Source of the DNA: a virus
DNA length: 31,226 nt
Reading direction: 5' to 3' (one strand)
IMG/VR virus record: IMGVR_UViG_3300025168_000026
Location: 1 to 31,226 of that record
In this document: positions 7,280-28,990 of the stretch, piece after piece
Layout of the letters: the number at the start of each line of letters is the position of its first letter
How positions within the stretch are numbered: the stretch's first letter is position 1
The notes under the pieces: generated by a model
What the model was told of the DNA's origin: nothing
Databases searched by the model: none
What the model saw: only the letters and a program-made list of their open reading frames with translations
Program-made: the position numbers and the translations under genes

Positions 7280-8434
7280 TTAATGAAGTGTATATTTTCC
7301 AAAATTAGGTTTGCTTAGAACTGAATAAGTAGCATAGCGAATAGCATCAATTAGGTGGTTATTTTTATCAATTGGTTTATTTATCATCTTACCACTTCTA
7401 TCTTCTTGCCATTTGTAATTCCTAAATTCCTGTATTGCATTATGGCTATCTTTTAAGATATGTATTTTAAAGCGTTTTAACAAGTCTATTCCTGCATTTA
7501 TACTATCAGCACCTTTTAAACTTGGTCGTACATTCCAACCCATCCTACGCAGTTCCTCAATCAATCTAGGTTCAGCTGAATCAAAGTAAATTGTTTCTCG
7601 TTCTATTCCTACCTGCTTCCATTTCTTATGAATATCAATGGTTGTCATTTGGGTTTGATACAAGTGTTCTTGAATGTACAGGTCGTATTCTTTTCTGTAA
7701 ACACCCACCAAAGTTGTTGGGTCATTTGTATATCCTGCATCTGCCCCAAAGCTAATAAATTCTGCATCTTCAGGAATCTTATTTACCTCAACATAATTAA
7801 AAATTGTAGACCTACTAACTCCTTTTATACCTAATCCATAGATTTGCCAATACTGTTCATCAGTATGTTTTAGCCTTTCAATTTCTTCTTTAATTGTATC
7901 ATTAAGGAAACTATTATCCAAATAAGTAGTAATATTAAAATCGGCATCTTTTCTTGGTATTACCTTGTCATAAATCCAATGGTATTCATCTGATGGATTA
8001 AAGTCAAGAATTATTTTTTCTTCTGTTCTAAATACTAATTGCTGCCAATCTTCATAATCTAACTCATTTGCTTCATTGATGAAAAGCAGGTGTCGTTTTC
8101 TACCTCTAACTTTTTGAGGTTGGTCTAATGAGATAAACTCAATTAGGTTTCCATTTAATTTATATTCGTGATTTGATTTATTATGATTGTCTTCAAAATA
8201 AGACTTGTGTAATTTTAGTATATCAAAAAAATCCCTCATCACAGAAGCACGAACTGAAGGAAATGTTTTTCTGCAAATGGTAATTGTCTTACCTGTATTC
8301 TTTAATGAATAATGGAATATGATATACAGCAGGATATTGTAAGTCTTCCCTGACCTAGTTCCACCTTGCTCAATTGATATCTTTTTATCTGTTTCTAAGA
8401 TATGTCTAAAAACAGCATTAGTTTTTATTCTCAA
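7280..8434 (-). CDS. terL: Terminase large subunit (packaging ATPase and nuclease)
   Basis: A 384-aa protein of the PBSX/XtmB (Terminase_3) type that cuts concatemers and pumps DNA into the prohead. Residues 24-31 (GGTRSGKT) are the Walker A motif, and LLFINEANE at about 116-124 is Walker B with the catalytic acidic residue. The C-terminal RNase H-like nuclease has D232 (GADAGYTNDPT), D285 (YFDSAEPR) and D363 (NHLIDAIRYA). The start is TTG at 8434: an in-frame stop lies two codons upstream, and the nearby ATG in a TAATG overlap is out of frame. It overlaps the small subunit by 17 bases. Confidence 0.93.
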   Translation of the reverse strand: MRIKTNAVFRHILETDKKISIEQGGTRSGKTYNILLYIIFHYSLKNTGKTITICRKTFPSVRASVMRDFFDILKLHKSYFEDNHNKSNHEYKLNGNLIEFISLDQPQKVRGRKRHLLFINEANELDYEDWQQLVFRTEEKIILDFNPSDEYHWIYDKVIPRKDADFNITTYLDNSFLNDTIKEEIERLKHTDEQYWQIYGLGIKGVSRSTIFNYVEVNKIPEDAEFISFGADAGYTNDPTTLVGVYRKEYDLYIQEHLYQTQMTTIDIHKKWKQVGIERETIYFDSAEPRLIEELRRMGWNVRPSLKGADSINAGIDLLKRFKIHILKDSHNAIQEFRNYKWQEDRSGKMINKPIDKNNHLIDAIRYATYSVLSKPNFGKYTLH

Positions 8435-8768
8435 TGATTTCTATTTCAAAATGTGTTGGCATTCCATCTGCACCTGTAATTTCTTGTCTTTCAACATAAC
8501 CCCTTTTCTTACCTTTTGTCTTTAGGTAGAATATTGTAGCAGCAGTTGAGTTATCACTTATCTGTTTATGCAATTGGCTTTCTGCAAAATCTAAAGCTAC
8601 ATTTTCTATTTCCTGAACATCCTTTGCAAATATACTATCTTCATTTAGCCATTTGTAATATGTGCTTCTAGGTATGTCTGCTTTCTTACAAGCTACTGTA
8701 ACAACTCCTAGACTTTGTTCTAGTGCTGCTAATAGTGATTCCTTTTTTATATGTCTACTTTCGTTCAT
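8418..8768 (-). CDS. terS: Terminase small subunit
   Basis: A 116-aa protein with an N-terminal helix-turn-helix (residues about 8-42: LLAALEQSLGVVTVACKKA then PRSTYYKWLNED), a central helix likely to mediate oligomer assembly, and the ending KKRGYVERQEITG typical of phage terminase small subunits. It recognises packaging DNA and stimulates the large subunit. The gene directly precedes and overlaps terL. Upstream of it lies the plus-strand tRNA-like gene. Confidence 0.85.
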   Translation of the reverse strand: MNESRHIKKESLLAALEQSLGVVTVACKKADIPRSTYYKWLNEDSIFAKDVQEIENVALDFAESQLHKQISDNSTAATIFYLKTKGKKRGYVERQEITGADGMPTHFEIEIIENKN

Positions 8769-8807
8769 TTTATATTAAATATTTTTTTGTATATTGTCGT
8801 CTCAAAT

Positions 8808-8877
8808 GCGGTGGTAGTGTAAAAGCAACACATCTAGTTTCCAACTAGAAGATGGCGTTCATATCGACCTCACCGCT
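8808..8877 (+). tRNA. tRNA-Gly(UCC)-like gene, plus strand
   Basis: The plus strand folds as a tRNA. The acceptor is GCGGTGG / TCACCGC (7 bp, one G-U); the D stem is GTGT / ACAC with a short loop; the anticodon stem is TCTAG / CTAGA around TTTCCAA, giving anticodon UCC. The T loop is TTCATAT. Bacterial glycine identity elements are all present: G1-C72, C2-G71, G3-C70, C35, C36 and U73. Odd points: the D loop lacks the usual GG, the T stem is imperfect (GGCG / CG-A-CC with a bulge), and CCA is not encoded. It is followed by a plus-strand terminator. It is either a functional but divergent tRNA or a decaying one; the minus strand folds less well. Confidence 0.65.
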
Positions 8878-8885
8878 CTAATTAT

Positions 8886-8916
8886 TAACCCTTCTTTATT
8901 GGAGGGTTATTTTTTT
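8886..8916 (+). terminator. Plus-strand rho-independent terminator after the tRNA
   Basis: TAACCCTTC / TTTATT / GGAGGGTTA forms a 9-bp stem (one G-U) followed by seven T on the plus strand. It begins nine bases after the tRNA 3' end. The 3' half overlaps the last codons of the minus-strand Mom-like gene, whose stop codon is inside the stem. On the minus strand no U run follows, so it works in one direction only. Confidence 0.75.
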
Positions 8917-9482
8917 GGATATGGTTTTTTTTGTTCTTTACAAATTACTTTTAAATTATTATTTAAAGGATATACATACTTATATTTTCCTGATTTTTTT
9001 CTTTTATCTAATTTATTAAATTCTTTATTTGATAATTTTGCAGATGGTGTCCTATTATGCCCCCATTTACCTTTATAAAATACTTCAACACCACTACTTT
9101 CACTTTCATCAACTAAATACCAATTTGTTGCTTGGTATATAATACCTTTATGATTTTGACCTTTATCAGCATAACTAAATAAAAGTTTTACAAGTGGTTT
9201 TTTTTTCTTTATTAGTTTTATTGCTATTGCCATTGCTTTGCTTGTTGATTCTTGTTTACCATTTAAAGCCATTCTTGTTAATTCTAAAAACTGACCTGCA
9301 ACCAAACCATAAGACATCCCTAATTTATAACTTGCTCCACCTCCAAAAGTTATACATCCACACCATTCATTATTATTATTATAAACATTAAAACCTATAC
9401 TTGTAAGTGGAACAACTTTTGCATAATGGAAATTAAGGCAAGCATATTTAATTGCACTATGTGATGCTATTTCTAATCTCAT
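8907..9482 (-). CDS. mom: Mom-like DNA adenine modification protein (GNAT fold)
   Basis: A 191-aa protein resembling phage Mu Mom, a GNAT-superfamily enzyme that converts adenine in DNA to a carbamoylmethyl form and protects phage DNA from restriction. Visible signatures are CITFGGGAS (43-51), GLVAGQFLELTRMAL (59-73), and SYADKGQNHKGIIYQATNW (103-121), the most characteristic Mom stretch with H111. The basic C-terminus probably contacts DNA. The gene starts at the stop of the ParB-like gene with a 1-base overlap. In Mu, Mom is made late because it is toxic; here too it lies in the unit with terminase, downstream of a CGTTATA site. Confidence 0.82.
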   Translation of the reverse strand: MRLEIASHSAIKYACLNFHYAKVVPLTSIGFNVYNNNNEWCGCITFGGGASYKLGMSYGLVAGQFLELTRMALNGKQESTSKAMAIAIKLIKKKKPLVKLLFSYADKGQNHKGIIYQATNWYLVDESESSGVEVFYKGKWGHNRTPSAKLSNKEFNKLDKRKKSGKYKYVYPLNNNLKVICKEQKKPYPKK

Positions 9483-10018
9483 TACGATACAGAATAAAAA
9501 GAATCTTGATATTTATTTAAAATACTTTTTAACTCAAGTTCTGCATTTTCTAAATCATTTATATTATTAAATGTTATTTTTATAGAAGGTTTATTATTTT
9601 TTTCTTCTCCTATTAAATCTTCATCACTTGGTATTTCTTCTTCAAAAGGAAAGCCATCCAATCCCCATTCCTCTAATTCTTTCACATTCCAATCATTTGC
9701 TAAAATATCCCAATCCCATTCGCCAAAACCTACATTGTCTTTAACTATAAATTCCTGTGCTTGTTTATCATCTAAATCTGCTGCCTGTATAATATAGACT
9801 TCTTTAAGTCCAAGTTCCTTACAAGCCTTGTAACGCATATTACCACCTAAGATAACATTATCCTTATTGACTATGATTGGTCTAAGTGATAGCATCTCAG
9901 GAAATTCCTTTACACTATTAACAAGTTTCTGAAACTTATGCTTGTTGATTGTTCTAGGATTTGCAGCATTTTCTGTTATTGATGAAATGCTTACCTTTTC
10001 TATTTTAGCTTTAATCAT
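9482..10018 (-). CDS. ParB/sulfiredoxin-like nuclease-domain protein
   Basis: A 178-aa protein with the ParB N-terminal fold: NPRTINKHKFQKLVNSV (20-36, the N-P-R box), then LRPIIVNKDNVILGGNMR (45-62), where GGNMR corresponds to the GGxxR motif, and KELGLKEVYII. An acidic C-terminus follows. In phages such domains are often next to or fused with DNA methylases. Here it is directly coupled to the Mom-like gene, so a role in DNA modification or in directing it is likely but unproven. No helix-turn-helix of chromosomal ParB is visible, so plasmid-type partition is unlikely. Confidence 0.78.
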   Translation of the reverse strand: MIKAKIEKVSISSITENAANPRTINKHKFQKLVNSVKEFPEMLSLRPIIVNKDNVILGGNMRYKACKELGLKEVYIIQAADLDDKQAQEFIVKDNVGFGEWDWDILANDWNVKELEEWGLDGFPFEEEIPSDEDLIGEEKNNKPSIKITFNNINDLENAELELKSILNKYQDSFYSVS

Positions 10019-10365: not shown

Positions 10366-10857
10366 TTATTTTTTCTTCCATTCCCAACTTTTCTTCACTA
10401 AATCTATTGTCTGAATTACTTCACCAACATAATCTTCAGGTATTTCTTGTAATACTTTTAAGATAGGATTGTTTTTTATTTTGTTTTTTAAAGCATTGTA
10501 TTTAGATTCTAAGTTGTCAAACTTTCCCTGCAGGTAATGCAACTTGTCAATCTCATCGTATTGCAATTCACTTTTAAAATTAAAGCACCTTTCTAATTCC
10601 TGTAAGTCATTATTGTACTTTCTGTAAATTGGGTACATCTTAACTGAATGAATAGCTGTTGCGTGATGCATAGTTTTTCCTTCTGATTCAAAGTATAATG
10701 AAATGTTTGTCCACCTCATACCTAATTTTTCTCGCAGGATAAAACAAACTAATGCCCTTAACTCAACGTGGTTTCTGTTTCTTGTATTTTTAAAAATATC
10801 TATACCAGACATTTCTTTTACACTATTACCTATTTTTTGTATATCTTTTAATACCAT
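10366..10857 (-). CDS. Protein with DnaA domain IV-like DNA-binding region and coiled coil
   Basis: A 163-aa protein. Residues about 26-73 resemble the C-terminal origin-binding domain of DnaA: a helix (VELRALVCFILREKLG), the IS.YFE turn corresponding to IG..FG, and HHATAIHSVK, which lines up with the D-H-[ST]-T-V-x-H-A-x-x-K signature that contacts the DnaA box. There is no AAA+ domain. Residues about 85-135 are likely coiled coil (KLHYLQGKFDNLESKYNALK). It could bind the phage origin, mimic or compete with host DnaA, or act as a regulator. It follows a gene of unknown function in the early unit. Confidence 0.68.
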   Translation of the reverse strand: MVLKDIQKIGNSVKEMSGIDIFKNTRNRNHVELRALVCFILREKLGMRWTNISLYFESEGKTMHHATAIHSVKMYPIYRKYNNDLQELERCFNFKSELQYDEIDKLHYLQGKFDNLESKYNALKNKIKNNPILKVLQEIPEDYVGEVIQTIDLVKKSWEWKKK

Positions 10858-28003: not shown

Positions 28004-28990
28004 TTAAGCTATTCCTCCATCAACTATTGACCAACCAAAATTACTTACTAGTGATGCCCTTGCCGTTGCTGCTGCTCCTCCTCCAGTGTATTCCGAATTA
28101 CCAAAGTTTATTGAGATATTCGGTGTATATCCACTACCATTCGGAAATGCTGCTTGTAGTGTTGCCTCCCAACCAATTAAAATAGCATCGTAATTTGATG
28201 TTGAAAAAGTTACACCCGCAGCAAAATTTACAAAAGTTGTAACGCTTGTAATATTCCAATTACTTATGTTTTGGTCAAAAGATGTTGCACCAAAAAACAT
28301 AGCACTCATATTAGTTACACTACTCATATTCCAACTACCAATTGGTTGATTAAAAGAAACTGCTCTATTAAACATAGAATTTATTTTAGTCACATTGCTA
28401 GTATCCCAAGAACTTATATCTCGATTAAAAGCAGATGCTCTAAAAAACATATCAGCCATATTTGTAACACTACTAACATTCCAAGAACTTATATCTCCAT
28501 TGAATGACGATGCATCTCGGAACATATAACTCATATTAGTAGCATTTGTAAGATTTGGAGCATCTGTAAACGAACCAGTTAAATTAGTAGCACCTCTAAA
28601 AGACCTTTCAAAACTTGTCCAAACAATATTACCCCATTGTTTAATATCAATTAGTTTTGTTTTATCACCTCCATTATTAAAAAAAAATCTAGGAAAAATA
28701 CCACTTATAGAAACATCATAATCACCAGCAGTAGCAAAGGTTATTGTTTTGCCTCCACTTATATTATTAAAAGTTCGTCCATCTGAAGTAGTTATACTGT
28801 AATTGTATGTGGATGTCGCAATTATTGGTATTGTGATTGTTTCGTTAGATGTTGTTGTTCTCCAAGTAGTTATAAAAGATGTAGTATCTCCACTTGAAAA
28901 AACTTCTGAACTTCCTAAATAGGCTTTTGATATTTCATTACTTCCTAAGTATAATTTTGATATACTAGCACTTCCTAATTTTATAGCCAT
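28004..28990 (-). CDS. BspA-type leucine-rich repeat (DUF285-like) virion adhesin (328 aa)
   Basis: The N-terminus has a short duplicated motif ([28 protein letters not shown]). A possible beta domain follows (residues 30-115), then four 25-residue repeats at about 150-250 of the form F[ND]xxISxWxxSxVTxMxxMF, for example [20 protein letters not shown]. These match BspA/DUF285 repeats, best known from bacterial surface adhesins that bind host or matrix proteins. In a phage this is probably a receptor-binding or virion-surface protein. It lies between the protease and scaffold genes, not with the tail genes. The repeats may vary in number by recombination. Confidence 0.8.

Follow-up and report, generated by a model that had tools for sequence, protein, structure and literature searches.

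A non-standard glycine tRNA gene accompanies mom in many phage genomes and may provide a glycyl donor for DNA adenine modification

The product of phage Mu Mom is N6-carbamoylmethyl-adenine, a glycinamide. Acyl-CoA-dependent GNAT enzymes carry a pyrophosphate loop of the form [QR]xxGx[GA] after strand 4, and other proteins with a GNAT-type fold, namely FemX, L/F transferase and the TacT/AtaT toxins, act on aminoacyl-tRNA. The identity set of tRNA-Gly is G1-C72, C2-G71, G3-C70, U73, C35 and C36. To our knowledge, no system has been described in which a charged tRNA is used for DNA modification. In the accessible text of the work on Mu, the donor for Mom is specified no further than an acyl-CoA, with glycyl-CoA as an example. 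A glycine tRNA that serves outside translation has a precedent in Staphylococcus: according to the available text of PMC4052509, the cell-wall donor tRNA-Gly has lost G18G19 as well as the strong pairs at 49-65 and 51-63, the second of which is an EF-Tu determinant. This precedent is also supported by the accessible parts of PMC8007984 and PMC4810233. In the literature searched, which included few subscription papers, we found no description of Mom paired with a tRNA, and a published tRNA donor may exist.

Here we describe a tRNA-Gly gene that lies next to mom in a 31,226-nucleotide virus record from IMG/VR (IMGVR_UViG_3300025168_000026), which we call the window (positions 1 to 31,226 of the record). 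The only phage BLAST neighbours of this 31.2-kb record are Flavobacterium phages. The features of the region are collected in Table 1.

Table 1. Features of the mom and tRNA-Gly region, in window positions
Feature	Position	Strand	Basis
tRNA-Gly(UCC), non-canonical	8808-8877	+	Rfam 43 bits, R1 84.3 bits, alignment and covariation, fold z -3.45
tRNA-Gly acceptor stem	8808-8814/8870-8876	+	read from sequence
tRNA-Gly D loop AAAAGCA, without GG	8821-8827	+	read from sequence
tRNA-Gly anticodon UCC	8840-8842	+	read from sequence
tRNA-Gly T stem with bulged A8867 (= A63)	8854-8857/8865-8869	+	read from sequence
tRNA-Gly T loop UUCAUAU, U at 58	8858-8864	+	read from sequence
tRNA-Gly discriminator base U	8877	+	read from sequence
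Weak Bacteroidota-like -7 element TATATTGT	8790-8797	+	10 nt before tRNA; position as in relatives
Intrinsic terminator of tRNA transcript, 9-bp stem and 7 T	8886-8916	+	fold z, consensus scan
mom, predicted GNAT-fold DNA adenine modification enzyme (PF25680, phrog_1384)	8907-9482	-	profiles, AlphaFold, PDB 8bv8
ParB-like gene upstream of mom, usual cassette neighbour	9482-10018	-	profile matches, relatives' loci
Terminase small subunit, downstream; context, outside the system	8418-8768	-	profile match; mom-less TerS/TerL relatives without tRNA

The neighbour of the tRNA, which had been called mom-like, is a true Mom, homologous to the methylcarbamoylase of phage Mu (PF25680, 8bv8). The protein matches PF25680 with 107.7 bits (cut-off 27.1; E 8e-31), and a profile comparison with Mu Mom gives E 6e-32. 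Its AlphaFold model (pLDDT 92.5) has Mu Mom, PDB 8bv8, as its closest fold, with Z 20.0 over 179 aligned residues, and the next GNATs follow at Z 12.1. By homology to Mu Mom, these Mom relatives would modify DNA at adenine N6. Among 128 ELxR-bearing Mom proteins, 127 lack the CoA loop motif, and the window Mom is one of these 127. Like FemX, L/F transferase and TacT/AtaT, the window Mom has a GNAT-type fold and may, as we propose below, use an aminoacyl-tRNA; unlike them, its proposed acceptor is a DNA base. No close structural match to any of these proteins appeared among the 50 closest folds listed, and the absence of FemX and L/F transferase there is uninformative either way. The gene order also differs from that of Mu, which has Com upstream of mom and no tRNA after it, whereas in the window mom is preceded by a ParB-like gene and followed by tRNA-Gly.

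The tRNA itself is a genuine but non-standard glycine tRNA. It matches Rfam RF00005 with 43.0 bits against a gathering cut-off of 29 (E 4.1e-6), and its minimum free energy fold (-20.7 kcal/mol, z -3.45) is a cloverleaf whose T stem is bulged; none of 200 shuffles equalled this fold. ARAGORN missed the tRNA at default settings. As had been described, all of the glycine identity bases are present, the D loop is degenerate and the T stem is bulged. The tRNA departs from a canonical elongator at G18G19, at A58 and in the unbroken 5-bp T stem, but U33 and a 7-base anticodon loop are both retained. The D loop without GG is a donor-type trait, and the A63 bulge breaks the 51-63 register.

The tRNA was also said to be convergent with mom and separately terminated, and this holds. 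The 9-bp hairpin (8886-8909; fold z -4.14) is followed by seven T (8910-8916), and a consensus scan of 8700-9000 found two nested terminator-like sites at the hairpin, compared with 0.1 expected from shuffles. The stem does contain the mom stop codon (minus strand 8909-8907), while the spacer between tRNA and hairpin is eight bases and not the nine given earlier. The ORF list of the window is consistent with tRNA-Gly being its only plus-strand gene.

The Bacteroidota -7 consensus is TAnnTTTG, to which the window element is an inexact match. Exact TAnnTTTG occurs in 35 of 72 distinct upstream regions of the antisense class, where shuffles give 6.5. It is enriched upstream of sense-class tRNAs too, mostly 33 nt off; as it lies there mostly inside mom codons, we discounted it for that class. 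A run of at least five T was found in 65 of 67 distinct antisense-class downstream stretches versus 10 of 86 in the sense class. A sigma-70 scan of the plus strand found nothing useful.

We compared 80 relatives' loci selected by terminase large subunit with 80 selected by the window Mom. ARAGORN reported a tRNA, nearly always tRNA-Gly, in 39 of 161 loci, every one in the Mom set. A covariance model, R1, was built from an alignment of 20 tRNAs in which 99.8% of cells were paired and 15 of 20 pairs changed on both sides (78.9% and 9.7 in shuffles). R1 matched all 80 window-type Mom loci plus the window, with E 6e-8 or better and one chance match besides, so that conservation in relatives, looked to as a check in the preliminary description, was found. 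As R1 includes the A63 bulge it could favour bulged tRNAs, yet every window-type and P-type locus matched.

On the 80 terminase loci R1 gave only five matches, each in a locus with Mom. A profile HMM found Mom in six of these 80 loci; the tRNA is therefore present in 5/6 terminase relatives with mom and in 0/74 without it (Fisher p 2.5e-7). The single mom-bearing terminase relative that lacks a tRNA match, L037, has its mom elsewhere. The preliminary description had set the tRNA opposite a terminase/Mom operon. An attachment to terminase or to ParB was rejected because mom-less TerL loci, many of them with ParB, had no match. The tRNA belongs to mom, not to terminase, and is not an isolated oddity.

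The five tRNA-bearing terminase siblings have a Mom only 28-34% identical to the window Mom and a tRNA close to that of the window (up to 90% over 70 nt). These siblings (L002, L009, L024, L027 and L038) have terminases near-identical to the window's, another Mom type and nearly the same tRNA, and it looks as if mom had been swapped while the tRNA stayed. At about 1925-1980 of L027, a second antisense tRNA-like stretch lies between mom and tRNA-Gly, with the T arm GGTTCGAACTTGC in the given strand.

The attachment extends to other Mom types. With the divergent L002 Mom (the 28%-identical type) as query, R1 matched 80 of 80 loci. A Lutibacter Mom gave a tRNA near mom in 69 of 80 loci; among its misses, L440 is truncated by the end of its contig, L442-L446 share just 31-35% identity, and L367-L371 fall in, or look like, a branch that has no tRNA and includes Parabacteroides and Psychroflexus. 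When the query was Mom from Arthrobacter phage Shade, of the actinophage and proteobacterial-phage type, R1 matched beside mom in 27 of 80 loci. We built two further models, R2 for a D-armless form (98.7% paired; 37 strong matches in the Shade-query set) and R3 for a form with a normal T stem. The union of the three models puts a tRNA in 78 of the 80 Shade-query loci (missing from L255 and L259), part of these matches being by construction, since the set counted also supplied training loci, 19 for R2 and 11 for R3 (the twelfth R3 sequence, L163, is outside it). R2 found 18 strong matches beyond its training loci. In these counts, 'near mom' takes in tRNAs 336-675 nt off (L095, L121, L320, L321, L324, L362, L380 and L381), L393 is counted as adjacent from the R1 search although automated adjacency scoring missed it, and the sets overlap slightly (L345 = L002, L401 = L116, L426 = L127).

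Two named phages have the arrangement. Microbacterium phage Appa has an annotated tRNA-Gly 33 nt after a Mom-like gene that is itself preceded by a ParB-like gene, and in Arthrobacter phage Shade an unannotated tRNA-Gly overlaps the mom stop. A tRNA beside every Mom is ruled out, because 13 of 15 named phages with Mom have no adjoining tRNA, with ten of the named-phage loci (L447-L456) outside the R1 search; the 13 are Mu, ICP1, VSiP, Stickynote, phiSHEF2, Hayley, PM87, Pa1651, Melnitz (which has a weak R3 match about 1 kb upstream of mom), phiEf11, LP-026, Alsa_1 and A511. In bacterial genome contigs, a tRNA was found at 4 of 7 true Mom loci, one of them in a MAG labelled Clostridia; no tRNA was found at the Mom genes of Parabacteroides, Psychroflexus and Lutibacter (L168, L169, L172), which are chromosomal or lie in prophages, and L174-L176 were dropped as long unrelated proteins that are not Mom.

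The same result was reached from the tRNA side. A pattern of the T arm plus acceptor end found 120 stretches, of which 80 were examined; Mom is present in 78 of these, its 3' end meeting the tRNA, and is encoded on the opposite strand from the tRNA in 64 and on the tRNA strand in 14. The other two stretches stop no more than about 160 bases from the tRNA. A pattern for the D-armless form found 114, and 78 of the 80 examined carry Mom on the same strand; just 11 and 33 bases are present upstream in the other two. As judged from the genomes alone, searches in both directions show the coupling of a translation-decayed tRNA-Gly to Mom. Rfam found few other tRNAs over 100 records, two clear and two weak. 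The two clear ones, one each in the L085 and L086 records (G004:C1:9870-9984), are 115 nt long and therefore have a long arm or an insertion.

The tRNAs keep some features and lose others. All 51 distinct window-type tRNAs have G1-C72, C2-G71, G3-C70, U73, C35 and C36. Among the same 51, U33 is present in 34 (absent in 17), a 7-nt anticodon loop in 30 (eight bases in 21) and the D-loop GG in 36; position 34 is occupied by A in five tRNAs and by C in one more. A tRNA-Gly with anticodon ACC is termed universally missing in the accessible text of a review (PMC8007984). Across three sets, 144 of 145 distinct tRNAs have the bulged A63. None of 7 host tRNA-Gly has it, and all seven have the D-loop GG and a 5-bp T stem. 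The actinophage-type tRNA has a normal 5-bp T stem and no A63 bulge, and some further relatives' tRNAs have no D arm. This pattern of conservation fits selection for charging without selection for decoding.

According to the available text of PMC4052509 and PMC8007984, the non-proteogenic tRNA-Gly(UCC) used by FemX/A/B in S. aureus likewise keeps glycine identity and is altered at 18/19 and at 49-65/51-63. The two also resemble each other in a low tRNA score and, as proposed for the phage tRNA, in serving as donors outside translation. Unlike the S. aureus tRNA, the phage tRNA has a bulged A63 instead of weak pairs, is phage-encoded and tied to a DNA-modifying enzyme, and includes D-armless and 8-base-loop forms.

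A tRNA beside mom in nearly every relative suggests that glycine is handed to Mom rather than to the ribosome. We propose, as the probable role of this tRNA, that it is a dedicated, non-proteogenic Gly-tRNA that donates glycyl to the adjoining Mom for modification of adenine N6. From the attachment of the degenerate tRNA to mom we infer charging, escape from EF-Tu, transfer to DNA and rearrangement. As the identity bases are invariant, the host glycyl-tRNA synthetase may charge the phage tRNA. The bulged T stem and decayed core would then keep it off EF-Tu and the ribosome; for the actinophage type, with its normal 5-bp T stem, this argument falls to the D loop alone. The GNAT-fold Mom would pass the tRNA-borne glycyl group to N6 of adenine in phage DNA, giving N6-glycyl-adenine, an isomer of the Mu product. 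Finally, the glycyl amine could attack C6, and a five-membered spiro intermediate could open to N6-carbamoylmethyl-adenine.

A glycyl-donor role is the simplest explanation of the amino acid, the enzyme, the bases kept and the bases lost. Against it, 34 of the 51 window-type tRNAs still have U33. Additionally, the named phages without an adjoining tRNA indicate that the tRNA is dispensable for Mom chemistry generally, unless host Gly-tRNA serves there. With somewhat less confidence, we favour the general form of the model, in which phages of Bacteroidota, actinobacteria and other hosts would carry mom with their own EF-Tu-evading tRNA-Gly, and Mom would glycylate DNA adenine, which would then become carbamoylmethyl-adenine.

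Other roles can be weighed against the same data. It is possible that the tRNA is a substrate of Mom and not a donor, with an adenine of the tRNA, perhaps the near-invariant bulged A63, being modified; adenine N6 is indeed the Mom target. We consider this very unlikely, because the bulge is missing from the actinophage type, the invariant parts are the glycine identity bases, which are relevant only to charging, and Mu Mom works on DNA. Less probable again is a regulatory or processing element of mom, in which the tRNA shape would be cut by RNase P/Z or would control mom mRNA by folding. In favour of this, the tRNA and the 3' end of mom overlap in most loci, and in proteobacterial types the tRNA is contained in the mom ORF. 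In many loci, however, it is antisense and has a promoter-like site and a T run of its own, and from the opposite strand it could not shape mom mRNA. Moreover, anticodon CC and U73 would drift freely. The preliminary description had suggested a tRNA-like regulatory RNA; its non-translational sense survives, but an amino-acid donor is favoured over a regulator because the charging identity is invariant and the tRNA is attached to Mom.

Counter-defence ranks lower still. The phage tRNA might replace, or act as a decoy for, a host tRNA-Gly attacked by toxSAS, PARIS or retrons, and the accessible text of PMC11559606 reports that FaRel2 attacks tRNA-Gly and that phages deploy tRNA isoacceptors against such systems. 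However, a replacement must translate and many of these tRNAs cannot, the FaRel2 determinants G1-C72/C2-G71 are retained and not altered, and the tie to Mom from both search directions would be left unexplained. We regard as highly improbable the earlier suggestion of codon supply, in which the tRNA would be an extra GGA-reading tRNA for AT-rich phage genes. Phage tRNAs are common, a single tRNA gene is likewise present here, and in the window tRNA the anticodon is UCC, U33 is present and the loop has 7 bases. Unlike ordinary phage tRNAs, these are Gly without exception, with an NCC anticodon, are attached to a single gene and are decayed in translational features: among the relatives many have lost U33 or the 7-base loop, six of 51 have A or C at position 34, and others lack the D arm. 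The tRNA tracks mom and not codon usage: the GGA share of glycine codons is 37% for the window, 40% for tRNA-bearing siblings and 35% for the mom-less ones, and the tRNA is present in none of 74 mom-less siblings. Hitch-hiking of a functionless tRNA within one inherited gene block, which closely related phages do share, deserves next to no weight, as it is already contradicted by strong covariation despite variable sequence, by gain and loss together with mom, by repeated inversions with adjacency retained, and by occurrence across several terminase types and host groups.

Which molecule donates the group in Mom-type DNA modification has been unsettled so far, and with a tRNA-Gly attached to mom the donor can be put to a direct test. 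If a glycyl-donor role is correct, the missing donor of Mu Mom would be named, with host Gly-tRNA serving in Mu, and DNA would join peptidoglycan, lipids and protein ends as an acceptor of tRNA-borne amino acids. The tRNA-Gly genes adjoining mom in hundreds of phage loci would link charged tRNA to DNA chemistry and would form a natural tRNA family released from translational duty, some forms of which standard finders overlook.

We mapped tRNA presence and orientation on a tree of 129 Mom proteins. Presence changes six times in all, whereas 15 are required to explain the antisense arrangement; well-supported branches force at least seven of these, with tRNA presence retained. Adjacency to mom outlasts inversion. 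In L216, L262 and others of L207-L286, a D-armless tRNA-Gly with encoded CCA lies wholly within the 3' end of the mom ORF. Elsewhere in the window, a 328-aa protein (28004-28990, minus strand) has three DUF285 stretches (E 8e-84), and a 163-aa protein (10366-10857, minus strand) has a sub-threshold match to the DnaA C-terminal HTH.
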